This document shows, in pieces, positions 5,148 to 63,365 of a stretch of DNA of 64,000 nt. Location: assembly GCA_002355935.1 (NCBI GenBank), contig AP017895.1, positions 806,001 through 870,000 of the forward strand. The letters are read 5' to 3'. How positions within the stretch are numbered: position 1 is the first letter of the stretch; the number at the start of each line of letters is the position of its first letter. A program made the position numbers and the translations under genes. The notes beneath the pieces were generated by a model. That model had not been told where the DNA came from. It did not search any database and saw nothing but the letters and a program-made list of their open reading frames with translations. This DNA comes from Rothia aeria (GTDB taxonomy: Bacteria > Actinomycetota > Actinomycetes > Actinomycetales > Micrococcaceae).

Positions 5148-7283
5148 TTAGTTGGCGGTTGAGAGCACCTTCGCGCTGGGTTGGGTGAAGTTGTCGGTGT
5201 TGTACTTCGGTGCGACCGCCTTCATGTACGTCTGCCATTGCGCACCCGCGTAGGTTGCGCCGTCCACGTACTCACGTACCTGACCGTTAATTGCCAGCCC
5301 GTTCATGGAGCGGAAGCCCTTTGCCACGTTACCAACCCAGGAGGTGGTCACCAGGCCGCGGGTGTAACCGGCAATCCAGGTTTGTGACGAGTTATCGTTC
5401 GTACCGGTTTTCGCAGCGGACCCTTCGGGCAAACCAATCCCTCGGGTGGGGGCCGAGCCTCCCTGTTGGATCACGCCTTTAAGCACCCAGCTCACACCGT
5501 TAGCGATGTCCGGGTCAAGAACCTGTTCACACTTGGCCTGGTATTCCTTGAATACCTCGCCGTTGTTCTTGGTGACCTTGTTCATCGGGCGCGGCTCACA
5601 GTACTTCCCCTCGTTCGCAAAGACCGCGTAGGCTGAGGCCAATGTCAGCGGGGACACACCGTTTTTGGTACCGCCAATGTCAGTACCCAAATCGGGGATG
5701 CTGTGAAGCGGCTCTCCTGTGCCGTCGTACATGTGCAGGGTTTTAGACATTTCGTGCACATCGCACAAATCCAGCCGTGAGAGCATACCGTACAGGTATG
5801 AGTTCAGCGACTGCCGGATACCGTATGCCGCCGTGTTGTACCCCAGACCGCCGTTTACGGCGTTCTTGAAGGTCCACCCTTCCGGCTGGTTGCGGTAGTA
5901 GTATTTGCCGCCTGTCTCGTCGTAGCATTTGGCGTTCCACGCGAAACTGGTGGGGTACGACAACTGCGTACCATTGACCATGCCGTTGACGCCCTTGCCG
6001 TCCTTAATCCACTGGGCAAGGATCACCGGTTTGAACGTTGAACCGGGCTGGAAGCCATTGGTGCCGCCGTACTTGGCATCAACGTTGTAGTTGAACTGCG
6101 AGACCGAATGGTCATTGGCGTCCTTGGGGCTGCCCCATTCTGTGTTCTGCGCCATCGCCACCACATTACCGTTGGAAGGCTCGATGCTGGTCAGTGCGGT
6201 GTTAATGTCATTAGTGTTGGTTGCCCCAGGCTGAGTGGATTCAACTGCCTGCTTCGCAACCTTCTGTGCCTCCGTGTTCAGGGAGGTGTAAATCTTCAAA
6301 CCACCGCGCTGCAGCATGGCATTGCGCTGAATATCGGTGGCACCGTAGGACTCATCCTGCAGGATATTATTCACCACGTAGTTGCAGAAGAAGGCGTACT
6401 CGCCAGCGTTGCTGCACCCCTTCTTCACCGGGTGAATGTCCAGGTTTACTTCGCTGGCCACTGCCTCGTCGTACTCTTGCTGAGAGATCTTCCCGTCACG
6501 CAGCATGGTGGAGAGCACCACGTTACGGCGTTCAACTGCGTTATCGGGGTGCTCGTCCGGCCGGTAGGTGTTGGGGGACTGCACCAGCCCGGCCAGCAGC
6601 GCTGACTGGGCAACGTTCAGGTCCTTCGCAGGAATACCCCAGTAGTACTGGGCTGCGGCCTCAACACCAAAGTTTGAGCCGCCCATGTTCACGATGTTCA
6701 GGTAGCCTTCAAGGATCTCGTCCTTGGACTTGTTCTGCTCCATCGAAACGGCCAGCTTCATTTCTTTGATCTTGGCGAAGTAGTTCTTGTTCCCGCCCAG
6801 GGTGGCGTTCGCGTCCTCACCGTTCTGCTCAGCAGCGTTAACGATCAGGTTGTTCACGTACTGCTGGGTGAGGGTGGAAGCACCCTGACGTTTGCCGGGA
6901 TTCATCGCGTTATTGAAGAACGCACGTCCAATACCGACGGCAGAGACCGCGCCGTGGCTATAGAAATCACGGTCCTCAACCGAAATGATGGCGTTCCGCA
7001 TATGCGGGGAGATCTGGTCGAGCTTCACCTGTGTACGGTTCTCTTCGTAGAAGGTGGCCAGCTCGGTCTTACCATCTGCGGCGTAGATCGTTGAGGGACG
7101 TGCCAGGGGGCCCTCTGAAATCTCATCCGGTAAGTCTTGGAACCAGCTCATGGATGCGTTCACCACTGAGCCAGCGCCTACGACGGGCGGCACAACAATG
7201 ACCGCCACCAGAAAACCTGCAATGACGCTGTAAGCAATAAACTGCAAAAGGTCGCGGCCGCGACGTTTCTTAGGAGAAGCCAT
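5148..7283 (-). CDS. ponA: class A penicillin-binding protein (transglycosylase/transpeptidase)
   Basis: 711 residues: a basic N-terminus (KKRRGRD), one membrane anchor at about residues 15-38, a GT51 glycosyltransferase domain (ISVEDRDFYSHGAV, then QGASTLTQQYVNN) and a C-terminal transpeptidase domain. The serine motif is PGSTFKP and the third motif KTGTNDNSSQTW. The usual SxN tripeptide appears as GYN before TAAYG. It polymerises and cross-links peptidoglycan at the membrane surface. The ATG at 7283 was chosen because the basic cytoplasmic tail starts there; an upstream ATG at 7325 adds 14 unlikely residues. It heads a minus-strand run with the phosphoesterase and ABC genes. No PASTA domain was seen. 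Confidence 0.93.
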   Translation of the reverse strand: MASPKKRRGRDLLQFIAYSVIAGFLVAVIVVPPVVGAGSVVNASMSWFQDLPDEISEGPLARPSTIYAADGKTELATFYEENRTQVKLDQISPHMRNAIISVEDRDFYSHGAVSAVGIGRAFFNNAMNPGKRQGASTLTQQYVNNLIVNAAEQNGEDANATLGGNKNYFAKIKEMKLAVSMEQNKSKDEILEGYLNIVNMGGSNFGVEAAAQYYWGIPAKDLNVAQSALLAGLVQSPNTYRPDEHPDNAVERRNVVLSTMLRDGKISQQEYDEAVASEVNLDIHPVKKGCSNAGEYAFFCNYVVNNILQDESYGATDIQRNAMLQRGGLKIYTSLNTEAQKVAKQAVESTQPGATNTNDINTALTSIEPSNGNVVAMAQNTEWGSPKDANDHSVSQFNYNVDAKYGGTNGFQPGSTFKPVILAQWIKDGKGVNGMVNGTQLSYPTSFAWNAKCYDETGGKYYYRNQPEGWTFKNAVNGGLGYNTAAYGIRQSLNSYLYGMLSRLDLCDVHEMSKTLHMYDGTGEPLHSIPDLGTDIGGTKNGVSPLTLASAYAVFANEGKYCEPRPMNKVTKNNGEVFKEYQAKCEQVLDPDIANGVSWVLKGVIQQGGSAPTRGIGLPEGSAAKTGTNDNSSQTWIAGYTRGLVTTSWVGNVAKGFRSMNGLAINGQVREYVDGATYAGAQWQTYMKAVAPKYNTDNFTQPSAKVLSTAN

Positions 7284-7484
7284 TCCCCAGTTTAGCGGAT
7301 ATAACTGGGAACTGTAGCCGCCCACGTCAGCCCGCTTTTCATGCCCGGCATGCCGCCGAACAACCTCCTTAGGGTGTCTTAATATTTGGTGTTAAACATG
7401 AAGGTGCCCGCTGTATTCTGTCACGTACCCGTGAAATGACCGGTGATATTGTACAGTACGCCCCCGAAGGACTACCCTAGGTGT

Positions 7485-7688
7485 ATGAAGAAATGGGAAT
7501 ACGCAACTGTGCCTCTGATGATCCATGCTACTAAGCAGATCCTCGACAGCTGGGGCGAAGATGGCTGGGAGCTTGTGACGGTACTCCCCGGTGCCTCCGC
7601 ACCTTCCGGCCCGAACCCTGCAGGTAATATGGTCGCCCCCACGCAGGGCAACCCCATCGCCTACTTTAAGCGCGAAAAGGCGCAGTAG
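7485..7688 (+). CDS. small DUF4177-like protein
   Basis: 67 residues beginning KKWEYATVPLM and containing ILDSWGEDGWELV, the W-E-Y ... D-GWELV pattern of DUF4177 proteins. The ATG at 7485 matches the family start; an in-frame ATG at 7443 would add 14 unlikely residues. It lies upstream of the RidA gene, the position in which related Actinobacteria carry a short protein of this kind. Function unknown. Confidence 0.75.
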   Translation: MKKWEYATVPLMIHATKQILDSWGEDGWELVTVLPGASAPSGPNPAGNMVAPTQGNPIAYFKREKAQ

Positions 7689-7840
7689 TATACGCACCGC
7701 CCGGTGACCGCCCCATCTAGGGGTCGCGGCACCGGGTTTAGCGTCTTTTGCTTGTGCGGCTGCGGACAACCCCGCGAAAATATACCGCTTAAGGGCATCC
7801 TTAAACCAATCGCCGATCCCTTACCCACGGAGAGAGCATC

Positions 7841-50304: not shown

Positions 50305-51270
50305 CTACTGCGCAGCCGGGCTAATGAGCCGCTCCACGAGGGCTACCATAAGGTCCTTTTCTTTCGGGCTGCTCATGGCGACCATTAGGGTCATTGCCGC
50401 TAGGGCGTTGTTTGAGACGAGCGGTGTGCCATCGGCCGAAAACAGCAGGTTATTCTGGGCCAGAAACTCAATGAACAAGGCCGCGGCGCTGCGTTTATTC
50501 CCATCAACCAGCGGGTGGTCTTTGACCATGAGGTACAGTAAGTTCGCTGCTTTCTGCTCGGTGGTTGGGTAGAGGTCTTCGCCCGCGAAGCTCTGGTAGA
50601 TGGTTGCGACAACCGACTTGAGTTTATCCCCGTTTTCGATCCCGAACAGCCTATCTTGCGGGAATTCGCTGCGGGCGCGGGCAATGATCGCCTGCGCTTC
50701 GGCATGAGTGAGCTGCCACACCGGCGCGTTCCCGGTGGATTCGCTGGCAGAGAGCGTGCCTTCGTCGTAGTCGCGCAGGGCTTGCAGGCTCGGTAGATAG
50801 GCTGCGAGTACTTCACCGGTACCGGCCACAAGATGGTTATCTGCCCGTGCCATGACTTCTACGATCTGCCCGAGCTGTTCAAGCCGCTGTTGGTTAATGC
50901 TGTACCCCTGCACCAGGTATTCGCGCAGGCGCTTGGTGGCCCAGATGCGGAACTGCGTGGCCGTGGCTGATTTGACCCGGTAGCCCACGGAGATAATGGC
51001 ATCAAGGTTGTAGTGGCGCACTGATCGCCGAACCTGCCTGGTCCCCTCTTGACGAACTACCGAGAAATCCTCGGTAGTTGCCTCTTCTAGGAGCTCACCC
51101 TCAGCATAGATATTCTTCAGGTGGAGCCCAACATTGTCTGAACTGGTATTGAATAATACCGACATCTGCCGCTGGCTGAGCCACACAGTTTCGCCTTCTA
51201 TCTGAACATCAATAGCGGGCTGATCAGTATTTGGCTGGTAAATAATGATGGAGTTATTAAATTCGTTCAT
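50305..51270 (-). CDS. RhuM-domain protein with C-terminal Doc/Fic domain
   Basis: 321 residues. The N-terminal half is a RhuM domain (VWLSQRQMSVLFNTSSDNVG, YNLDAIISVGYRVKS, FRIWATKRLREYLVQGY). The C-terminal half holds HPLVDGNKRSAAAL, a Doc-type Fic motif (HPFxDGNKR) whose Phe is Leu. Doc enzymes phosphorylate EF-Tu and Fic enzymes AMPylate targets; which applies is unknown. No antitoxin helix motif is recognisable nearby. RhuM-Fic fusions occur on islands. It is convergent with ppx and divergent from the SUKH gene. Confidence 0.85.
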   Translation of the reverse strand: MNEFNNSIIIYQPNTDQPAIDVQIEGETVWLSQRQMSVLFNTSSDNVGLHLKNIYAEGELLEEATTEDFSVVRQEGTRQVRRSVRHYNLDAIISVGYRVKSATATQFRIWATKRLREYLVQGYSINQQRLEQLGQIVEVMARADNHLVAGTGEVLAAYLPSLQALRDYDEGTLSASESTGNAPVWQLTHAEAQAIIARARSEFPQDRLFGIENGDKLKSVVATIYQSFAGEDLYPTTEQKAANLLYLMVKDHPLVDGNKRSAAALFIEFLAQNNLLFSADGTPLVSNNALAAMTLMVAMSSPKEKDLMVALVERLISPAAQ

Positions 51271-51458: not shown

Positions 51459-52022
51459 GTGCCTATCTATACACCTGAAGAATACCTGGCCGTGATCGAG
51501 CGTATTAAGACTAAAATTGCTCAGAAGAATATCAGCATGGGGCCTACCATTTCGGAGACGGAAATTGCTGCTTTTGAGAGTGCCTGCAACACCCGCCTGC
51601 CGCAGGCGTACCGGCTGTTTCTGCTGGAGGTTGGTGACGGCTGGAACGACCCTGCGGCGGAGAGCATTAGCGCCAGTCCCATTCACCGGCTCGCAGAGAT
51701 TGAGCACAAAGACCTTTCCCTCCCCATGACGCTCACGGACGGCTGGGTTTGGGAGGATGAGGAGGACGAAGAGCAGCTTAGCGACGAGTCCTTTGAACGT
51801 AAGCTGGGGAACCAGGGTATTGAGCTCATGGATGAGGGGTGTGGCATGACCTATGAGCTGATTACCGCCGGGCCGTGCGCCGGTGAGGTGTGGAGCTTCT
51901 CGGATGTGGGTGTTAGCCCCTGCTGTGAGCGCCAGGACTTCCTGGGCTGGTTTGAGCTCTGGATAGACAGCGACGGTGACCCTGACTATTTCAAGGATTA
52001 TGTCTACGAAGAAGACGAATAG
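51459..52022 (+). CDS. SMI1/KNR4 (SUKH) family protein
   Basis: 187 residues, acidic. ISETEIAAFESACNTRLPQAYRLFLLEVGDGW is the start of the SUKH fold, continuing with GWVWEDEEDEEQL and EVWSFSDVGVSP; it ends EEDE. SUKH proteins are mainly immunity proteins of polymorphic toxins, although no toxin is adjacent. The GTG at 51459 follows TTGAGGAG by 7 bases. It lies in an accessory insert downstream of ppx. Confidence 0.85.
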   Translation: MPIYTPEEYLAVIERIKTKIAQKNISMGPTISETEIAAFESACNTRLPQAYRLFLLEVGDGWNDPAAESISASPIHRLAEIEHKDLSLPMTLTDGWVWEDEEDEEQLSDESFERKLGNQGIELMDEGCGMTYELITAGPCAGEVWSFSDVGVSPCCERQDFLGWFELWIDSDGDPDYFKDYVYEEDE

Positions 52023-52287: not shown

Positions 52288-53624
52288 TTATACTGTGGTA
52301 ACTTCCTCCCGCCATTTGTGGAGTTCTTCGTTTAGAGCTTGCAGCTTTTTCGAAAGTTCTTCCTTCTCTTTGAGATCTTTCACCTCAAAAAGTTTATTAT
52401 TTATTTTTTCTATTTCTTGGAATTTACCTTCAAGGTATTCTTTCTGTTCCAAGGTGAGAAATTTGCATTTTAGAGGTATACCTTCTGGGTTTAGATAAAT
52501 AGGATGACCTTTATCATTATCTACCGTAAAATTATTATTAATTGAACCAAAAAGTGTTTTCTGATAATAATTTTTTGATAGAAATTAGGGGTGTATTTTG
52601 TGAAACAGGAAGAGCTACCGTTTTCATTATTTTCGCCAAAAGAAACGTCACTATAGAAAATAGACCCGATGAATACAGTCCTGCCTTTGTAGGTGGAGCC
52701 GTTGAAGATAGCCTTACTCTGGTAGGTAGAGTTGCGGAAGTAAGCCTCGCCCTTGTAGGTAGAGCCGCTGAAGTCAGCCCAACTCGTGTAGGTGGAGCCG
52801 CTGAAATTAATAGGTTTTGCGTAGTAAGAGTTCGTAAGGTCTATTGGGTAGAAGAAGGTGCTTCCCGAGAAATCGTATTCAAAGTCTGACCACGCCCCCG
52901 GTGTGTTTTGTCTGAGTCTTGTAGACGGTCGTGAATTTCTTTAATAATTCCTAGACGAACGTCTGTTTCAGAATCTAATGTTGCTTTGTCTGCATAGAAT
53001 TTTTCTTTTTATCTTTATATATTCCTTTAGGCGTGGGGTTAGATAACTCATTATAATGAGAAGCGAGAGTGAATGGGGAGCGTATATAAGCGCAGAGGTT
53101 ATTGATAATAACCTGTCCTTCTTTGAGCCTGTCCTCATATTTGTCTATAGACTCGTCTTCAAGCCATTCATCCACGAGTCCAACGAGTGTGTACACGCCG
53201 CCCATACGAATAGGAGCTTTCTCATCACCTAGCTGTTCTACCGCTTTGGTGTACCGTTCTCTGCGTCCTGCCCTCACCTGTCGCAGATGGTCTCTGTCAT
53301 TTTTCTCTTTTTCCTGATCGGTCTTGAGTTTTTCGTTATTGTTTTGCGAAAAGTTTCGATAAGACCCATCACCGCGATAGCCCCACCGGTGATATAGAGA
53401 AAAGCTAACCGGAGGTTGCTCTGAGCTAGTAAGACAGGGGCGCTCTTATCGTTGGCTGGTTCTCTAGGGGTTTCAAAAACTCGTTGCGGGATAGATAGAG
53501 CACACGCTAGCCCGGCACTAGTAATCAGCAGAATAGCAATAGGCAGCCACCACCGTTTTATCCATAACCATATTTTATGCGACCGCCTAGGCTGTTCTGC
53601 TTCCTGCTGTTTTTTATCGCTCAT
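52288..53624 (-). pseudogene. pentapeptide-repeat protein, degenerate short copy (four frame breaks)
   Basis: Starts with two membrane segments (WWLPIAILLITSAGLACALS and LRLAFLYITGGAIAVMGL), then the family domain RRERYTKAVEQLGDEKAPIRMGGVY ... and about five 11-residue repeats (FSGSTYTSWADFSGSTYKG), then a tail ending WREEVTTV. The frame breaks in T- or A-runs at about 53345, 52998, 52915 and 52553. One base in each gives exactly 447 codons, so it may be an error-damaged gene rather than a pseudogene. It is the last and shortest member of the array and the only other one with a membrane anchor. Confidence 0.65.
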
Positions 53625-53922
53625 AGGTAAGTAGACTCCTTACGGTGAGTGTGCGCAAGTACCACCCTACCGCATCTTCAGCTCGCCTTTCAGGTTTTCC
53701 TGAATTTTGGCTCAAGGTTTACCTGCAAATCTTTGCTGAGCAGGCAGATAACAGCCCGGCCCTGCGCATATTCAGAGGTCGTTGCGGGTTAAATCCTGTG
53801 GTCGAAACAAACCTGCCACGTCAGAGCAGGGTCAAACTCATAGGGGTAAACAGCACCGTAGAATCTTAGTGCTCTTATACGGCAGGAGGTGGAGACCGCG
53901 AATCCTTTGGGGCGGCTAGTTA
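53625..53922. other. 298-bp gap in the repeat array, no gene
   Basis: Separates the degenerate copy from the next gene. No repeat unit, coding region or clear terminator is seen; a short leader with GGTAAGTAGACTCC precedes the degenerate copy's start. Confidence 0.4.
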
Positions 53923-55749
53923 TTAGTTATCTTCCTCTTCGGGCGCTGTATCCTCCGCTTTTACCGTGGTGGCTTCCTCCCGCCATTCATAGAGCTTTTC
54001 GTTAAGAGCTTGCAGCTTTTTCGAGAGTTCTGCTTTCTCTTTGGGATCTTTTACCTCACGAATTTTATTCTTCGTTTCGTCTATTTCTTGGAACTTATCT
54101 GTAAGGTATTCTTTCTGCTCTGCGGTGAGAAAAGCACAGCCAAGAGGTAAGCCGTCAAGGTTGCGGTAAATGGGGTAGCCCCTGCCGTTTTCGACGGAGA
54201 AGTCATTATCAGGTGAACCAAAAAGTGTATTTTGATGGCTATTCTCATTATAAAACTGAGGGGTGCATTCTGTGAAGCGAGAAAAGTTACTGTTGTATCT
54301 ATCTTTGCCATAATAAACGTCACCGCAGAAAATAGACCCACTGAAGTTGGCCTTATCTTCGTAGGTGGAGCCGCTGAAATAAACCTCATTCTGGTAGATG
54401 GAGTCGGTGAAACCAGCCCGACCCTGGTAAGTGGAGTTGCGGAAGTCAGCCCAGCCTCGGTAGGTGGAGCCGCTGAAATGAGCCCACTGGTAGGTAGAGT
54501 TGTTGAAGTAAACCTCACCCTGGTAGGTGGAGTCGGTGAAACCAGCCCGACCCTGGTAAGCGGAGTTGCGGAAGTCAGCCCAGCCTCGGTAGGTGGAGTC
54601 ACTAAAGTCAGCCTTGTCCTGGTAGATAGAGTCGCTGAAGTCAGCCTCACTCTGGTAGGTGGAGTAGCTGAAGTAAACCTCATTCTGGTAGGTCGAGCCG
54701 CTGAAGTCAGCCTTACCCTTGTAGGTAGAGTCGCTGAAGTAAACCTCACTTTGGCAGGTAGAATTACTGAAGTCAGCCCAGCTTTGGTAGGTGGAGCTCA
54801 TGAAGGTAGCTCCGTTCTGGTACGTGGAGGCGCTGAAGTCAGCCCAGCTTTGGTAGGTGGAGCAATTGAAGCCAACCCAACCTGTGTAGGTGGAGCCGTC
54901 GAAGGTAGCCCAACTCTTGTAGATGGAGCTACCGAAGTCAGCCTCGTCCTTGTAGACAGAGCCGTCGAAGCGAACCTCGTCTTGGTAAGTGGAGCCACTG
55001 AAATTAACGGGTTTTTTGTAATAGGAGTTTGTGAGGTCTATAGGGTAGAAGAAGGTGCTTCCCGAGAAATCGTATTCAAAGCCTGACCATGTTCCCGGTG
55101 TGTTTTTGTCAGGGCTTTGTAGGCGATCGTGAATTTCTTGAATAATGCTCAGGCGAATATCTGCCTCAGATGTGAACTCTGCTTTATCAGTGTAGAATTT
55201 CTGCTGATTATCTTTATAAAACCCCTCAGGTGTGGGGCTGGCCTGAGATAACTCATCATAATGAGAAGCAAGAATAAACGGGGAGCGAATATAGGCGCAG
55301 AGATTATTAACAATAACCTGCCCTTCTCTGACTTTTTCAGGCTCAGACAGATTTTCTTCTTCAAGCCATTCGTCCGCGAGCCCAATGAGCGTATACACAC
55401 CACCCATACGAACGGGGGCACTCACATTACCAAGCTGTTCTACCGCTTTGGTGTACCGTTCTCGGCGTTCTGCTTTACGTTCTTTGAAAGCATTTTCGTC
55501 GAATTGCCGGATTTGTTCTTTGAGAACTTCCGCTTGGTGCTCTTGGTTTTTAAGGGCGGCTTTAATGTCTGCATTCGCTTTAGCGCGGTCGTTAGTATTC
55601 TTGCGGTAGGTTTCAAGTAGGACAAGCGCTGCCCCACCAGCCAGCAGCCACGGAAAAGCCTTCTCAAACCGTGCCATAAACTTGGTGTGCCGATATACCT
55701 CCGGGCTAGCAGATAATCTAGACTCTATAGTTTTGCGTTCTTCTGGCAT
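53923..55749 (-). CDS. pentapeptide-repeat protein with membrane anchor, array copy 2
   Basis: 608 residues. A membrane helix at about residues 33-48 (PWLLAGGAALVLLE), a coiled-coil-like charged stretch (60-95), the family domain RRERYTKAVEQLGNVSAPVRMGGVYTLIGLADEWL, then FEYDFSGSTFFYPIDLTNSYY leading into about 21 repeats of STYQxxADFSx type (240-475), then SRFTECTPQFYNENSHQNTLFG and a coiled-coil tail. The repeats fit the Pentapeptide_3 class, which folds as a right-handed beta-helix. A block STYRGWADFRN-S(A/T)YQGRAGFTD occurs twice. Function unknown; DNA mimicry or protein scaffolding are only possibilities from other family members. Confidence 0.82.
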   Translation of the reverse strand: MPEERKTIESRLSASPEVYRHTKFMARFEKAFPWLLAGGAALVLLETYRKNTNDRAKANADIKAALKNQEHQAEVLKEQIRQFDENAFKERKAERRERYTKAVEQLGNVSAPVRMGGVYTLIGLADEWLEEENLSEPEKVREGQVIVNNLCAYIRSPFILASHYDELSQASPTPEGFYKDNQQKFYTDKAEFTSEADIRLSIIQEIHDRLQSPDKNTPGTWSGFEYDFSGSTFFYPIDLTNSYYKKPVNFSGSTYQDEVRFDGSVYKDEADFGSSIYKSWATFDGSTYTGWVGFNCSTYQSWADFSASTYQNGATFMSSTYQSWADFSNSTCQSEVYFSDSTYKGKADFSGSTYQNEVYFSYSTYQSEADFSDSIYQDKADFSDSTYRGWADFRNSAYQGRAGFTDSTYQGEVYFNNSTYQWAHFSGSTYRGWADFRNSTYQGRAGFTDSIYQNEVYFSGSTYEDKANFSGSIFCGDVYYGKDRYNSNFSRFTECTPQFYNENSHQNTLFGSPDNDFSVENGRGYPIYRNLDGLPLGCAFLTAEQKEYLTDKFQEIDETKNKIREVKDPKEKAELSKKLQALNEKLYEWREEATTVKAEDTAPEEEDN

Positions 55750-55821
55750 TGGCGTTCTGCTCCTTAAAGTGATGGTGCGTGTTCCTTTTTACCCTACCGC
55801 ATCTTCAGCTTAACCGGGCGG

Positions 55822-57294
55822 CTAGTTATCTTGCTCTCCGGATGTTGTGCCCTCCGCTTTTACCGTGGTAACTTTCTCACGCCAAACACGGATCTCACCG
55901 TTAAGAGATAGCGGAGTGTTGACAAATATGGCGTTCCCCTCGGTATCTTTTACCTCACGAAATTTATTCTTCGTTTTTCCTATTTCATGGAACTTATCTT
56001 CAAGGTATTCTTTCTGTTCTGCGGTGAGAAAAGCACAGCCAAGAGGTAAGCCTTCAAAGGCACGGTAAATGGGGTAGCCCCTGCCGTTTTCGACCGTGAA
56101 ATCATTGTTATGCGAGCCAAAGAGCGTGTTTTTATGGTTTGTCTCGTCATAAAACTGAGGGGTGCAGTCTGTGAAGCGAGAAAAGCTACTGTTGTCTCCG
56201 TCTTGGCCAAAATATATTTCACTACAGAAAATAGACCCGCTAAAGTTAGCCTCGCCCCAGTAGATGGATCGGCTTAAATTGGCCCCTTCCTGGTAGATAG
56301 AGTTACCGAAGCCAGTCCTGCCCCGGTAGGTAGAGCCGCTGAAATCGGCCCCACCCCAGTAGACGGAGTCATTAAAGGCAGCTTCGCCCCGGTAAGCGGA
56401 ATCGCGAAAGACAGCCCAGCCTTGATAAACGGAGCCGCCGAAAACAATCTTGCCCCAGTAGGTAGAGTTGCTGAAATCAGCCCCGCGCCGGTAGGTAGAG
56501 CCACAGAAATCAGCCTCTTCCCGATAGGTAGAGCCATTGAAAACAACCCAGCCCCGGTAGACGGAGCCACGAAAGAAAACTTCACCTTGATAAGTGGATC
56601 CGCTGAAGTTAGCCCCATCCTGGTAGGTGGAGCTGCTAAAGACAGCCTTGTCCTGGTACGTGGAACCGGTGAAGTTAGCCTGACTCTGGTATGTAGAACT
56701 GAGGAAATCAGCCCCACGCCAGTAGATAGAGCCGCTGAAATCTGCCCCGCCCTGGTAAGTGGAACCGCCGAAGCGAACCTCGTCCTGGTAGGCGGAACCA
56801 CTAAAATTAACAGGCTTTGCGTAGTAAGAGCGTGTGAAATCTATGGGGTAGAAGAAGGTGCTTCCCGAGAAGTCATATTCAAAATCAGACCATGCCCCCG
56901 GCGTGTTTATTTCAGGGCTTTGTAGGCGATCGTGAATTTCTTTAATAATGCTCAGGCGAATATCTGCCTCAGATTCCAGCGCTGCCTTGTCAATGTAGAA
57001 TTCTTGTTCTCTATTTTTGTAAAGACCTTCAGCTGTTGGGCTTTCCTGAGCCAGCTCATCGTAGTGAAAGGCGAGAGCGAAGGAGGAACGGATATAGGCA
57101 CAGAGGCTATTGATAATAACCTGTCCTTCTCTGACTTTTTCTGTGTAATCCAGGTTTTCGTCTAGTAGCCACTCATCCACGAGCCCAACAAGCGTGTATA
57201 CGCCACCTATACGGACAGGGGCTTCTTTGCTTCCGAGTTGTTCCATCGCTTTGGTGTACCGTTCTCGGCGTTCTACATTATGTTTTTCTGGCAT
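55822..57294 (-). CDS. pentapeptide-repeat protein, array copy 3
   Basis: 490 residues, no membrane segment. It begins MPEKHNVERRERYTKAMEQL, then the family domain (GGVYTLVGLVDEWLLDENLD, GQVIINSLCAYIRSSFALAF), the DFEYDFSGSTFFYPIDFTRS lead-in, about 18 repeats with many WGGADFSG/RRGADFS variants, and the C-terminal FYDETNHKNTLFGSHNNDF, ending with a charged tail. Only 3 bp separate its ATG from the stop of the next copy, so they are one transcript. Cytoplasmic. Function unknown. Confidence 0.82.
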   Translation of the reverse strand: MPEKHNVERRERYTKAMEQLGSKEAPVRIGGVYTLVGLVDEWLLDENLDYTEKVREGQVIINSLCAYIRSSFALAFHYDELAQESPTAEGLYKNREQEFYIDKAALESEADIRLSIIKEIHDRLQSPEINTPGAWSDFEYDFSGSTFFYPIDFTRSYYAKPVNFSGSAYQDEVRFGGSTYQGGADFSGSIYWRGADFLSSTYQSQANFTGSTYQDKAVFSSSTYQDGANFSGSTYQGEVFFRGSVYRGWVVFNGSTYREEADFCGSTYRRGADFSNSTYWGKIVFGGSVYQGWAVFRDSAYRGEAAFNDSVYWGGADFSGSTYRGRTGFGNSIYQEGANLSRSIYWGEANFSGSIFCSEIYFGQDGDNSSFSRFTDCTPQFYDETNHKNTLFGSHNNDFTVENGRGYPIYRAFEGLPLGCAFLTAEQKEYLEDKFHEIGKTKNKFREVKDTEGNAIFVNTPLSLNGEIRVWREKVTTVKAEGTTSGEQDN

Positions 57295-57297
57295 TGC

Positions 57298-58986
57298 TTA
57301 TCGGGTCCTCTGCGCTGTGGTGACTTTTTCACGCCATTCATTGAATTCTTTGTCAAGAGGTTGCCGCTTTTCTATGAGCCCTTTTTTCTCTTCATCATTT
57401 TTCACGGCAAGGATTTTATCGCTGGTTTCTTCCATCCTGCGGAGAATACTCTTCAGGTATTCCCCCTGATCGGGTGCCAGGAAAGCACAGTTGAGGGGTA
57501 ATCCCTCAGGCGTGAGGTAAATGGGGTGGCCCCTACCGTTTTCGACCGTGAAATTATTCTTATGCGAACCAAAAAGTGCGTTTTGATGGTTTGTCTCGTC
57601 GTAGAACGCGGGGGCGTACTGCGTGAAACGGGAGGAGCAGCTGCCGTCTATATCTTCACTAAAATAGATTTTGTCGTCAAAAATAGACCCGTTAAAGGCT
57701 GCTACACCCTCATAAGTGGATCCGCTGAGATTAACCCAGCCCTGGTGCATAGACTCGCTGTAGTCAGCATTTCCCTGGTAGGTGGACTTACTGAAATCAG
57801 CCCAGCTCCCATAGGTGGAGTCAACAAAGTTAGCCCACCTCTGGTAGGTGGATCCGCTGAAGGTGGCCCATTCCCGGTATTCTGAGCCGCAGAAGTCAGC
57901 CCCAGCCCGGTAGGCTGATCTGCGGAAGTCAGCTGCACCCCGGTAAGTGGAGTAGCTGAAGTCAGTGAGGGCTTGGTAGGCGGAGCCACTGAAATCAGCC
58001 TCTTGGTAGGTGGAGAAGTAGAAGTGAGCCTCATCCTGGTACCTGGAGCCGCTGAAATTAGCCTTGCCCTGGTAGGCGGCACGGCTGAAGATAGCCCGGC
58101 CCCTATAGACGGAATCACTGAAATCAACTGTACCCGTGTAGCTGGAACCACGATGATACGCCTCACCGGCGTAGGTGGAGGCGCGGAAATCAGCCCTACC
58201 CTGATAGGTGGAATAGCTGAAATCGGTATCATCCCCATAGTCTGAATTGCTGAAATCAGCGTCACTTTTGTATGTGGAGGGAGAAATGAAATCGCTAAAA
58301 ACAGCTTTTTGCATGTAGGTGGAGCGGCTAAAGTCAGCCCGACCCTGATAGGCGGACTCCCGGAAGTCAGCTTCACCCTGATACGTGGAATAGCTGAAAT
58401 CAGTATCACCCCCGTAGTCTGAGTAGCTGAAATCAGCGTCACCGCAATAGTGGGAGCCGCTAAAATTAGCCCAGTCTTTATACACGGCATTATCGAATGC
58501 GGCAGGTTTTGCGTAGTAAGAATTTGTCAGATCTATGGGGTAGAAGAAGGTGCTTCCCGAGAAGTCGTATTCAAAATCTGACCATGCCCCCGGCGTGTTA
58601 ATCTCAGGGCCTTGTAGGCGGTGGCGAATTTCTTGAATAATGCTCAGGCGAATGTTTGCCTCAGATTCTAGCGCTGCTTTGTCAGCGTAGAATTCTTGTT
58701 CTCTATTTTTGTAAAGGCCTTCGGCTGTTGGGCTTTCCTGAGTCAGCTCATCGTAGTGGAAGGCGAGAGCGAAGGAGGAACGGATATAGGCGCAGAAGTT
58801 GTTAATAATAACCTGTCCTTCTCTAACTCTTTCTAAGTATTCCAGGTTTTCGTCTAGTAGCCACTCATCCGCGAGGCCAATAAGCGTATACACACCATCC
58901 ATACGGACAGGGGCTTTCTCATTGCCCAGTTGTTCTACTGCTTTTACGTACCGTTCTCGGCGTTCTGTATTATGTTTTTCTGGCAT
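57298..58986 (-). CDS. pentapeptide-repeat protein, array copy 4
   Basis: 562 residues. MPEKHNTERRERYVKAVEQL, family domain, then about 25 repeats, the longest single array; several use DYGGDTDFSY and a 15-residue irregular unit STYMQKAVFSDFISP. The tail reads EETSDKILAVKND and ends TTAQRTR, identical to the end of copy 5. The TAA is followed by GC(A/G) ATG of the next gene at both junctions, evidence of recent tandem duplication. Cytoplasmic; no signal. Function unknown. Confidence 0.82.
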   Translation of the reverse strand: MPEKHNTERRERYVKAVEQLGNEKAPVRMDGVYTLIGLADEWLLDENLEYLERVREGQVIINNFCAYIRSSFALAFHYDELTQESPTAEGLYKNREQEFYADKAALESEANIRLSIIQEIRHRLQGPEINTPGAWSDFEYDFSGSTFFYPIDLTNSYYAKPAAFDNAVYKDWANFSGSHYCGDADFSYSDYGGDTDFSYSTYQGEADFRESAYQGRADFSRSTYMQKAVFSDFISPSTYKSDADFSNSDYGDDTDFSYSTYQGRADFRASTYAGEAYHRGSSYTGTVDFSDSVYRGRAIFSRAAYQGKANFSGSRYQDEAHFYFSTYQEADFSGSAYQALTDFSYSTYRGAADFRRSAYRAGADFCGSEYREWATFSGSTYQRWANFVDSTYGSWADFSKSTYQGNADYSESMHQGWVNLSGSTYEGVAAFNGSIFDDKIYFSEDIDGSCSSRFTQYAPAFYDETNHQNALFGSHKNNFTVENGRGHPIYLTPEGLPLNCAFLAPDQGEYLKSILRRMEETSDKILAVKNDEEKKGLIEKRQPLDKEFNEWREKVTTAQRTR

Positions 58987-58989
58987 CGC

Positions 58990-61900
58990 TTATCGGGTCC
59001 TCTGTGCTGTGGTGACTTTTTCACGCCATTCATGGATTTCTTGGGTGAGAGACCGCAGCTTTTCTGAGAGTTCTTTCGTCTTGTCTGGGGTGTGCGGGGT
59101 ATGAATTTTATTGCTGATTTCTTCCATCCTGCGGAGAATACTCTTCAGGTATTCCCTCTGATCGGGTGCCAGGAAAGCACAGCCGAGGGGTAAGCCTTTA
59201 AGGTTGCGGTAAATGGGATAACCTCTGCCGTTTTCGGCTGTGAAATTATTGTCGTGTGAGCCAAAGAGCGTGTTTTGGTGGTTTGTTTCGTCGTAGAATT
59301 CAGGGGCGCATTGTGTGAAACGGGAAGAGCTGCCGCTGTTTGTGCTCTGGCCACAATAAATTTCGTTGCGAAAGATAGACCCGCTAAAAGCAGTTTCGTC
59401 CTCATAGGTGGAGTTGCTGAGGCCAACCTGACCCTGGTAGATGGAGCCACTGAAATTAGCTTTACCCCGGTAAGCGGAGTTGCTGAACCCTATCCCGCCG
59501 ACGTAAATGGAATTGCTGAAATCAACCTCACCCTGGTAAATGGAGTTGCTGAACCCGCCCCCATTCCAATAGGCAGAATCACTGAAACTAACCACTTCCT
59601 GGTAAGTGGAGTCGAAGAAGCTAACCATATCCAGGTAGGTGGAGTCGGTAAAACTAGCCTCATCCTGATAGGTAGAATCGTAGAAATCAGCCCAGTTCTG
59701 GTAGATGGAGCGGTCAAAATAAACAAAATCTTGGTAAGTGGATTTATTAAAACAAACCTCACCCCTGTAAGTTGAGTCACTGAAGTAAACCACATTTTGA
59801 TAGGTGGAGCTATTGAAATCAGCCCGACCTTGATAGATTGAGCCGCGGAAGTCAGCCCAGTTCCGGTAGGTAGAATCGTTAAAATCAGCCCGACTTTGGT
59901 AGATAGAGTTACTGAAGTCAACCCAATCCTGGTAGGTAGAGCCGCTGAAATTAACGGGTTTTGTGTAGTAGGAGTTTGTGAGGTCTACGGGGTAGAAGAA
60001 GGTGCTACCTGAGAAGTCATATTCAAAATCAGACCACGCCCCTGGAGTGTTTTCATCTGGGCCTTGTAGGCGGTGGCGAATTTCTTTAATAATGTTCAGA
60101 CGAATATCTGCTTCAGATTTTATGGTCGCTTTGTCTATATAGAATTCTTGTTCTCTATTTTTGTAGAGACCTTCGGCTGTTGGGCTGTCTTGAGTTAGCT
60201 CATCATAGTGGGAAACAAGGGCAAACGGGGAGCGAATATAGGTACACAGGTTATTAATAATAACCTGTCCTTCTCTAACTCTTTCTAAGTATGCCAGGCT
60301 TTCGTCTAGTAGCCACTCATCCGCGAGACCAACGAGCGTATATACGCCACCTATACGAACGGGGGCACTCGCATTACCAAGCTGTTCTACCGCTTTGGTG
60401 TACCGTCCTCGACGCTCTGCCATACGTTGTCTGAAAACGCTTTCAAGGCATTGCTGGGTCTGTTCTGCAAGAATTTTTATCTGGTTTTCATGGCTTTCAA
60501 GAATATCTTTAATAACTACATAAATCTTGGCGTGATCATTGCCGTTTTTTCGATAGTCGTCAAGTAGGGAAAGCGCTTCTCCACCTGCTGAGAACCATGG
60601 AACCTCCTCCTCAGCCCGTTTCAACTTGGTCTGCTGAGGTGTTCCTGTATTATTCGGCGAGTTGGGCGGTAATGCGGTAACTTTTTCACGCCAGTCGTGG
60701 AGTTCTTGGGTGAGAGACCGCAGCTTTTCTGAGAGCTCTTTCTCCACTTCATGATTCTTCGCGGCAAGGAACTCATCATTCGTTTCTTCTAGCCTGTGGA
60801 GGGTATTCCCCAGGTAATCCTTCTGGGCGGTTGATAGGAAGCGGCAGTCAAGGGGTAATTCGTCAGGGGTAAGGAGAATGGGGCAGCCCTCGCTGTTTTC
60901 GGCGGAGAAGTCATTATTGGGTGCGCCAAAAAGTGTGTTTTGCTGGTTTGCCTCGTCATAGAACGCAGGGGCGCATCGTGTGAAACGGGAAGAACCGCCG
61001 CTGCCTGTATCTTTACCAAAATCGATTGTGTCCTGAAAGATAGACCCGCTAAAAGTAGCCTCATCCTCGTAGATGGAACCGCGGAAGTTGACCCTACCCC
61101 AATAGATGGAGCAGCTAAGATCAACCCCCTCCTGGTAAGTGGAGCCGGTAAAACTAGCCTCATCCTGATAGGTAGAATCGTAGAAATCAGCCCAACTTCG
61201 ATAAGCAGACTCGCTGAAGTTGGCATCACCCCAATAGGTGGATTCGTGAAAGTCTACCCAGTCTTGATAAACAGACTTGCTGAGATCAACCTCAGCCTGG
61301 TAGATGGACTCGTGGAAATCGGCCCCGCCCCGATAGGTGGAGCCGCTAAAATCAGCCCGACCCCGGTAGGTGGAGTCGCTGAAACCAACCCAGGCCCGGT
61401 AGGTGGATCCACTGAAATTAGCCGAACTCCAGTAAACGGATTCACTGAAATGAACGGGTTTCGTGTAGTAAGAGCGTGTGAGGTCTACGGGGTAGAAGAA
61501 AATGCTACCTGAGAAGTCGTATTCAAAACCTGACCACGCCCCTGGGGTATTTTCGTCTGGGCCCTGTAGGCGGGCGTGAATCTCTTTAATAATGCTCAGG
61601 CGCACATCTGCTTCTGCTTGAAGCTCTGCCTTATGAATATAGAATTCTTGTTCTCTATTTTTGTAGAGACCTTCAGCTGCTGGGCTGTCCTGAGTCAGTT
61701 CATCATACTCAGAGGCGAGGGTGAAAGGGGAGCAGATGTAGGCGCAGAGCTTATTAATAATCAACTGCCCCTCTTTAATTTTTCGTCTTCAGATAGGTTT
61801 TCTTCGTGAAGCCACTCATCCACAAGCGTAACAAGTGCGTGTACGCCGCTCACGCGCGCAGAGGCGTCCTTGCTGCGAAGCTGTTTTACCGCTTGAAGAT

Positions 61901-61991
61901 ACCGTTCCTAACGCTCTGCCTTATGTTTCTCAAACGTGGTTTGGTGAGATACCTCTGAATTGTTCTCTACATTTTCGGGTGTATGCGGCAT
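58990..61991 (-). CDS. fused double-module pentapeptide-repeat protein, array copy 5 (nonsense codon and frameshift near the start)
   Basis: Two complete family modules in one frame: module 1 (about 13 repeats) and, after LKRAEEEVPWFSAGGEALSL, module 2 with its own RRGRYTKAVEQLGNASAPVR and about 18 repeats. The open frame runs to a TTG at 61764, but family sequence continues to an ATG at 61991 (MPHTPENVENNSEVSHQTTF). This N-terminal part has an in-frame TAG (AER-stop-ERYLQ, near 61908) and one base missing in an A-run near 61775. With that base the gene is exactly 1001 codons. Translation may start internally or the gene may be silent. Function unknown. Confidence 0.7.
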
Positions 61992-62087
61992 TGCTTTTAA
62001 CGGTTCCTCACAGGTGAGTGGAGCGGCGTTTATTTCCTCCCCATCCTACAGCAGATACCCCGTATATGTAGGGGAAAGCGTCATCTG

Positions 62088-63365
62088 CTAGTTGCCACCA
62101 GGCAGAGCAGTAGCTTCTTTCCTCCACGCTCGTATATCTTGGCTTAGGCTCTCCATTTTCTCCCGAAGGTCTTGCCGCTCCTGCGGCACCTGCGAGTCAT
62201 GAAGATGGGTCCACGTCTCGTGTATCTTTCGGAACTTTGCCGCGAGATAGTCTGCCTGTTCTGTAGACAAAAAGCTGCATCCCAGCGGAAGACCGTCAGC
62301 GCCGAGAGCTATAGAGTAGCCGCTGTTCGCAACCACAAAATTATTGCTAGACGAGCCAAATAACGTTGCCCGCGCATTCTTTTCAGCAACAAAACAGGGC
62401 GCACTCTGAACAAACCGCGAAGGATACGATTCCCCGAAAAAGTCGGTACCAAAATTCAGGGCACCGCAGAAAACAGACCCGTACAGGGAAACCTCGCCAG
62501 CAAAGACAGAATCATTCACAAAAACTGAGCCTTGGTACAGAGAGCCGTCGAACCCGGCCTCGCCCCGATAAGTAGAGCTATAGAATAAAGCCTCATCGTA
62601 GTAGAGAGACTGGTCGAAGAAGACCGATCCACCGTAAACAGAATCGTGGAAGGAAACCTCACCATAGTAAACAGACCAGTTGAAACGCGCCGAATCATGG
62701 TACGTAGATCCGCTCCACTGGGCTTCACCACAATAGGTTGAGTTGTTGAAGAAAACCCAATCGTAGTACGTAGAATCGCAAAAATAGGCGCTTCGTTCAT
62801 AGGTGGAACCGTTGAATTCGGCACTGGTGTAGTATGTGCACCTGCTGAAATCAACGGAATTCTGGTACCAGGAATCCTTCATATCAACCGGGTAGAAGAA
62901 AACACTATTCGAGAAATCGTACTCAAACCCAGACCACGAGCCTTCTACATAACTCCTTCTGTCGTCCTGAGGAAAATGGCGCAACCGGCGGTGAATTTCC
63001 TGCAAAGCCTGCTGACGAACCTTTGCTTCTGCCAGAAGCTCCGCTTTGTGCATATAGAAATCTTGGTGGTTGTCCCCGTATACGCCGTGCTGGCTGGGCT
63101 TATTCTGCGAGAGTTCATCGTACCGAAATGCCAGCTCAAAAGGGTCGCGGATGTAGGCGCAGAGAACATCAACGATGCGCTGGCCCTCCGTGTGCTTTTC
63201 TTCTGCGGATAAGGATTCATTGGCAAGGTATTCATCCGCCAGCCCCACGAGTGCGTGCACCGCGCCCAGCCGTGTGTATGAGTGGGCAGAGTCAAGCAGC
63301 TCGACGGCTTTTAGATAGCGATCCTGCCGTGAAGCATTCAATGTGCTCTTGTTGCTGGCGGTCAT
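62088..63365 (-). CDS. pentapeptide-repeat protein, array copy 6 (divergent)
   Basis: 425 residues, intact. SRQDRYLKAVELLDSAHSYTR replaces the usual RRERYTKAVEQLG; VHALVGLADEYLANESLSAE and GSWSGFEYDFSNSVFFYPVD follow, then about 12 repeats with Tyr- and Trp-rich variants (STYYDWVFFNN, STYCGEAQWSG). The tail reads LGCSFLSTEQADYLAAKF and ends WRKEATALPGGN. It is more GC-rich than the other copies and the most diverged, so it may be the oldest member. It is probably first in the transcript direction, with GGAG near the ATG. Function unknown. Confidence 0.82.
   Translation of the reverse strand: MTASNKSTLNASRQDRYLKAVELLDSAHSYTRLGAVHALVGLADEYLANESLSAEEKHTEGQRIVDVLCAYIRDPFELAFRYDELSQNKPSQHGVYGDNHQDFYMHKAELLAEAKVRQQALQEIHRRLRHFPQDDRRSYVEGSWSGFEYDFSNSVFFYPVDMKDSWYQNSVDFSRCTYYTSAEFNGSTYERSAYFCDSTYYDWVFFNNSTYCGEAQWSGSTYHDSARFNWSVYYGEVSFHDSVYGGSVFFDQSLYYDEALFYSSTYRGEAGFDGSLYQGSVFVNDSVFAGEVSLYGSVFCGALNFGTDFFGESYPSRFVQSAPCFVAEKNARATLFGSSSNNFVVANSGYSIALGADGLPLGCSFLSTEQADYLAAKFRKIHETWTHLHDSQVPQERQDLREKMESLSQDIRAWRKEATALPGGN

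Follow-up and report, generated by a model that had tools for sequence, protein, structure and literature searches.

The pentapeptide repeat proteins of the Rfr fold, among them MfpA, Qnr, HetL and HglK, form a group in which, to our knowledge, the function of most members is unknown. They are built with four pentapeptides to each coil, and MfpA and Qnr are among the solved chains (excerpts of PMC8145042). A second group of described systems, the esaG and tipC arrays of T7SS toxin immunity, consists of strings of non-identical paralogues that change in copy number, in which conserved blocks frame a variable part and recombination occurs at those blocks (excerpts of PMC9484751). Here we describe in Rothia aeria an array of genes that shares with the first group a pentapeptide face pattern and a predicted beta-helix, and with the second its tandem, non-identical and recombining paralogues. 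The immunity arrays offer the nearest published logic to that of the Rothia array; their proteins are unrelated to the array family.

The window analysed is a stretch of 64,000 nucleotides (bases 806001-870000) of the R. aeria genome, a single contig of 2,588,680 bp; the genome paper (PMC5201055) describes an assembly from PacBio reads alone, in two contigs, with PCR used to close one gap. Its minus strand carries an array of seven units, comprising five open ORFs, one of which is a two-unit fusion, and one frame-broken unit, and forming the end of a 12-unit locus that continues beyond the window. The first-pass annotation had recognised six adjacent genes of one architecture. The architecture holds, but the count is seven, because two units are fused in the ORF at 58990-61764 and another, at 52288-53624, is split between reading frames. 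Unit 1 (62088-63365) is a soluble form of 425 aa with a helical domain, about 14 repeats and a tail. Units 2a (60514-61764) and 2b (58990-60513) are the first and second halves of the fused 924-aa ORF, and the helical domain of unit 2a starts upstream of that ORF, at about 61925, in broken frames. Unit 3 (57298-58986; 562 aa) has about 25 repeats, unit 4 (55822-57294; 490 aa) was used for structure prediction, and unit 5 (53923-55749; 608 aa) has a weak hydrophobic segment close to its start. Unit 6 (52288-53624), the broken one, has a hydrophobic N-terminal piece (53274-53624) and a helical domain (52975-53277), followed by a lead-in, about five repeats and a tail.

The common layout is thus a helical domain, a predicted beta-helix of 11-residue repeats and a helical tail, with membrane segments added in some units; many lack them. 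The copies vary, as had been noted, in membrane anchoring and in the number of 33-bp repeats, which runs from about five (in the broken unit 6, counted by eye) to 25 (by manual cutting), with TRF agreeing on the 33-bp period. The 3-bp gaps of identical sequence from which recent duplication had been concluded did not survive scrutiny: just two inter-ORF gaps are of 3 bp, reading GCA and GCG, and the others are 72, 298 and 323 bp. Nor are the duplications very recent: among the four closest units the helical domains share 73-85% identity, with dS of 0.33-0.77 (four pairs computed).

The earlier assignment to a tandem paralogue family of PF13576 (Pentapeptide_3) type is confirmed: among seven ORF pieces tested, all five long ones score 34 to 83.5 bits against a cut-off of 27, and two short fragments are without a match. 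Residue identity at a lag of 11 is 0.33-0.45 in five units, compared with a maximum of 0.15 in 2000 shuffles; unit 3 was omitted owing to register shifts. An AF2 model of unit 4 is a confident beta-helix (pLDDT 86, and mostly 88-98 within the repeats), predicted as right-handed, with right-handed beta-helices among the matches. Both repeat faces, A-D-F-S-G and S-T-Y-Q-G, conform to the pentapeptide pattern, and one additional residue after each second face gives the 11-residue unit and the strands recurring every 22 residues in the model. Canonical pentapeptide repeat proteins, defined by at least eight contiguous five-residue repeats with four per coil, are therefore not what the array encodes. 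Neither single-sequence nor profile searches matched a solved protein chain at E 0.01, MfpA and Qnr included. The helical domain, or hub, matches only generic helical entries, and there was no match in NCBIfam for six proteins or in PHROGs for three window proteins. With PADLOC four of five array-family proteins had no match, and the fifth, unit 1, matched Cas8b through its helical domain (E 4e-4, 16.8 bits), which we judge to be chance; this aside, PF13576 is the sole named family or defence match.

A search of the genome with a helical-domain profile (A1, 16 rows) recovered 30 helical-domain stretches, which we grouped into 24 units at three loci, all on the minus strand: locus A (858-882 kb; 12 units, seven of them in the window), locus A-prime (908-910 kb; two units) and locus B (2509-2528 kb; ten units). 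A local search added one divergent lone relative at 1,929,754 (L015, about 5754-6977; G+C 0.355). The DNA flanking the loci is syntenic between species and the number of units differs, in a comparison of one genome per species in which all flanking-gene names except SUKH are our reading of translations. Locus A, flanked on one side by ppx and SUKH genes and on the other by proC, has 12 units compared with three in G009, which we take to be R. dentocariosa ATCC 17931. Locus B, which a permease gene borders on one side and a HepT/MntA-like pair on the other, has ten units compared with one in G009. Locus A-prime, between dnaK and a small phosphatase-like gene, has two units in both, and three to five in genomes G008, G019, G021 and G437 (one G008 unit, its fifth, was identified by eye). 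G+C content per unit spans 0.34-0.65 overall and 0.38-0.61 inside a single G021 locus. In a 40-row hub tree, with several long branches and 11 of 37 inner branches open, there is support for an R. aeria clade of units 2b, 3 and 4, unit 5 groups with one from G009 just short of the support mark (94/82), and the A-prime units have their partners in other species, with support for one of these pairs and weak support for the other. Array B is interrupted (L013 13816-17559) by ORFs that we read as resembling pilus-assembly or secreted proteins, and ORFs beside the first unit of a G021 array (L065, about 6400-7800) are presumably IS3-type transposase-like. At the window edge of locus A, the SUKH-1 family gene (51459-52022, plus strand) occupies the same place in G009. 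Between it and ppx sits a RhuM-Fic fusion gene (50305-51270, minus strand) that matches the PADLOC candidate PDC-S23 (E 7e-138); there is no such ORF at the same place in G009.

Because syntenic arrays occur in five other genomes, we reject the possibility, raised in the first-pass annotation, that the array is an assembly artefact. About ten of the 24 R. aeria units are split across frames by our reading, and these breaks are probably indel errors. Ten of at most 27 non-repeat G009 ORFs require more than one frame in the R. aeria assembly, a count from which repeat-protein ORFs were removed afterwards and which includes at least two doubtful cases (one is probably antisense and the other has an overlong start); three comparisons among the other genomes gave no split ORF out of at most 25. 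As ordinary conserved neighbours are split as well, the array is not supported as a pseudogene graveyard, and the split genes next to the arrays (loci L009-L014 and flanks) caution against pseudogene calls in this assembly.

The main new result is that the domains of the units appear to behave as exchanged modules. Units 637627 of G008 and 826729 of G021 correspond by position and sequence. In 99-nt windows their DNA is 95-99% identical over the first 790 nt, passes through one transition window of 79%, drops to 36-64% in the repeats and is again 79-94% in the cap; dS is 0.11 in the hub and 0.75 in the rest. The neighbouring pair, 635757 (G008) and 824401 (G021), is alike along its full length, as are the last units of the two genomes after the first window (0.85-1.0), so that the repeat domain has been replaced in one of three orthologous pairs. 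No donor of the replaced repeats was found among the loci compared. The reverse mosaic is seen between unit 1 of G008 and that of G437, where identity is 24-59% in the anchor and over the greater part of the helical domain, and 83-100% in the remainder.

Similar mosaicism is seen among the paralogues in the window, leaving aside unit 1 as too divergent. Hub, lead-in and the first three repeats are 74-85% identical among units 2a, 2b, 3, 4 and 5, the later repeats 59-68%, and the cap and tail 61-80%. The later repeats do better than all 20 shuffled repeat orders in a single pair (2b/5, 0.68 vs 0.66 for the best shuffle), and in the other nine of ten pairs there is no positional repeat homology beyond shuffled order; units 2a and 2b have one exact 49-bp stretch of their repeats in common. 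Unit 4 is closest to unit 3 in its hub (76/516 mismatches vs 109/504 for unit 5, p 0.004) and to unit 5 in its tail (79/399 vs 128/375, p 7e-6), these p-values coming from a comparison picked after the numbers were seen and taking sites as independent. One G009 unit contains near-perfect 33-bp repeats (L061 13270-13780), a sign of recent expansion. The frame of this unit is lost just before the repeats, beside a homopolymer, through either phase variation or a sequencing error. The rapidly evolving inventory suggested earlier is thus borne out in a sharper form, with the repeat domain exchanged as a module; the defence or phage-protein mimicry proposed along with it is conjectural.

The scenario we favour, with a probability of about 45%, is that the array is a recombining repertoire of intracellular binding scaffolds, most likely for variable incoming proteins. 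Each unit would be a scaffold around a constant helical hub, tethered to the membrane in some units by hydrophobic segments, and the hub would carry a right-handed beta-helix, built from 11-residue repeats and ending in a cap and the helical tail. Two processes, recombination between conserved stretches of the hub, lead-in and cap and the gain or loss of 33-bp repeats, would replace the beta-helix while the rest is kept, thereby giving each copy a different surface. The likeliest use would be to bind and neutralise variable proteins that enter the cell, in the way that immunity paralogue arrays counter polymorphic toxins, with phage proteins as a second candidate class of target; the array proteins are perhaps immunity proteins or decoys. 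The cytoplasmic location, the binding function and the type of partner are inferred. A binding repertoire accounts better than a single housekeeping scaffold for ends that stay constant around an exchanged rod-like middle, for fixed loci that gain and lose units and for dN/dS below 1 (see below). Since the genome has seven SUKH matches (one with internal stops) and one clear WXG100 protein, R. aeria may live among polymorphic toxins, a circumstantial point. The binding-repertoire reading is tempered by the replacement of repeats in just one of the three G008/G021 pairs, by the missing donor and by the lack of an amino-acid excess, and also because no partner gene or toxin was recognised beside the arrays, with flanks read by eye, and no family match other than PF13576 was obtained. 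A bolder version, which we offer tentatively, is one of combinatorial intracellular recognition, in which three fixed loci in oral Rothia would store variants and recombination would swap recognition domains and, separately, membrane anchors, the targets being incoming toxins or phage proteins. The swapping of target-recognition domains in restriction enzymes follows a logic akin to this.

The main rival to a binding repertoire is neutral or near-neutral repeat dynamics, as tandem genes slip and recombine readily and one generic job could tolerate any beta-helix. The near-perfect repeats of the G009 unit indicate that repeats do expand, and many repeats vary at exposed positions alone. We computed dN/dS for 12 pairs, hub and rest apart, and it is below 1 wherever it can be estimated. 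Hub values are 0.10-0.49 in ten pairs with long alignments; of the other two, one is void (0.63, from a secondary 31-codon stretch) and one saturated. The rest of the unit gives 0.16-0.38 in nine pairs (two are too short and one is saturated), from repeat alignments that are unsure because positional homology is lost, and whole-unit comparisons of R. aeria with G009 are heavily gapped. No excess of amino-acid over silent change was seen in the 12 pairs, and diversification by point mutation is accordingly not seen. This want of positive selection would suit neutrality. However, the repeat regions are open with those nine low estimates and copies are retained at three loci in several species, and we consider a neutral origin of the variation rather improbable.

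The family is found in six of 35 Rothia genomes (six of 32 of good quality), with at least two adjacent units in each, and no match came from the 14 genomes belonging to other families in a set of 39 relatives. A wider-family profile matches 65 of the 296 genomes of a class sample (own genome included), with one to seven mostly scattered matches per other genome and at most 14 candidates scored in each; in a phylum sample, ten of 396 match a narrower profile (own included; at most ten candidates scored). A helical-domain relative is present at E 1e-3 in 91 of 72,556 plasmid records (best E 3e-15 among the matches listed), those of Streptomyces (48), Rhodococcus (21) and Prescottella (15) among them. 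Only one of 50,697 phage records has a relative, gene 39 of the Mycobacterium abscessus prophage prophiT49-1, which rules out a phage-borne gene as the main form; this gene (L046 8746-9969) lies on the strand opposite to most of its neighbours and adjoins a serine recombinase gene. The helical domains of these actinobacterial proteins are 29-40% identical to that of unit 3. Three full proteins were read, and all have a hydrophobic N-terminus, hub and lead-in as in the array family, and two have clear 11-residue repeats, degenerate in the Rhodococcus protein; unlike the Rothia genes they are single and lack the Rothia-type tail. By sequence, the helical domain belongs to a scattered actinobacterial pentapeptide-repeat family, with arrays seen only in Rothia.

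The prophage relative would be at home in a phage sensor, in which a phage component is recognised by the beta-helix and the helical hub then acts by signalling or by killing the cell, and the constant-plus-variable layout resembles that of conflict systems in which repeat domains, pentapeptide repeats included, stand beside constant modules (excerpts of PMC7159879 and PMC8195603). Such a role is unlikely given the single phage record, a hub without a known effector domain and the lack of a convincing PADLOC match. Slightly more doubtful still is a structural role as an envelope or septal scaffold, on the lines of cyanobacterial HglK (a precedent in excerpts of PMC8145042), with copy number tuning its amount or length; the membrane segments of some units and of the actinobacterial relatives agree with it, but many units lack such segments and a scaffold has no need of module exchange. 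A DNA mimic protecting topoisomerases as MfpA and Qnr do is very improbable, as its pentapeptide-type beta-helix and the acidity of some repeat domains (to -2.1 charges per 22 residues) are set against near-neutral charge in other open units, an 11- rather than five-residue repeat and the failure to match any solved chain.

Returning to the binding repertoire, a repeat-built rod that seems to be swapped between copies with like ends suggests a changeable set of binding proteins. The exchange of the repeat domain on its own provides a direct handle, in that target choice should lie with the exchanged part, and orthologues that differ in their repeats and hardly at their ends are ready-made pairs for binding assays. 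The family may also reveal how a commensal of the human mouth copes with competitors or phages.
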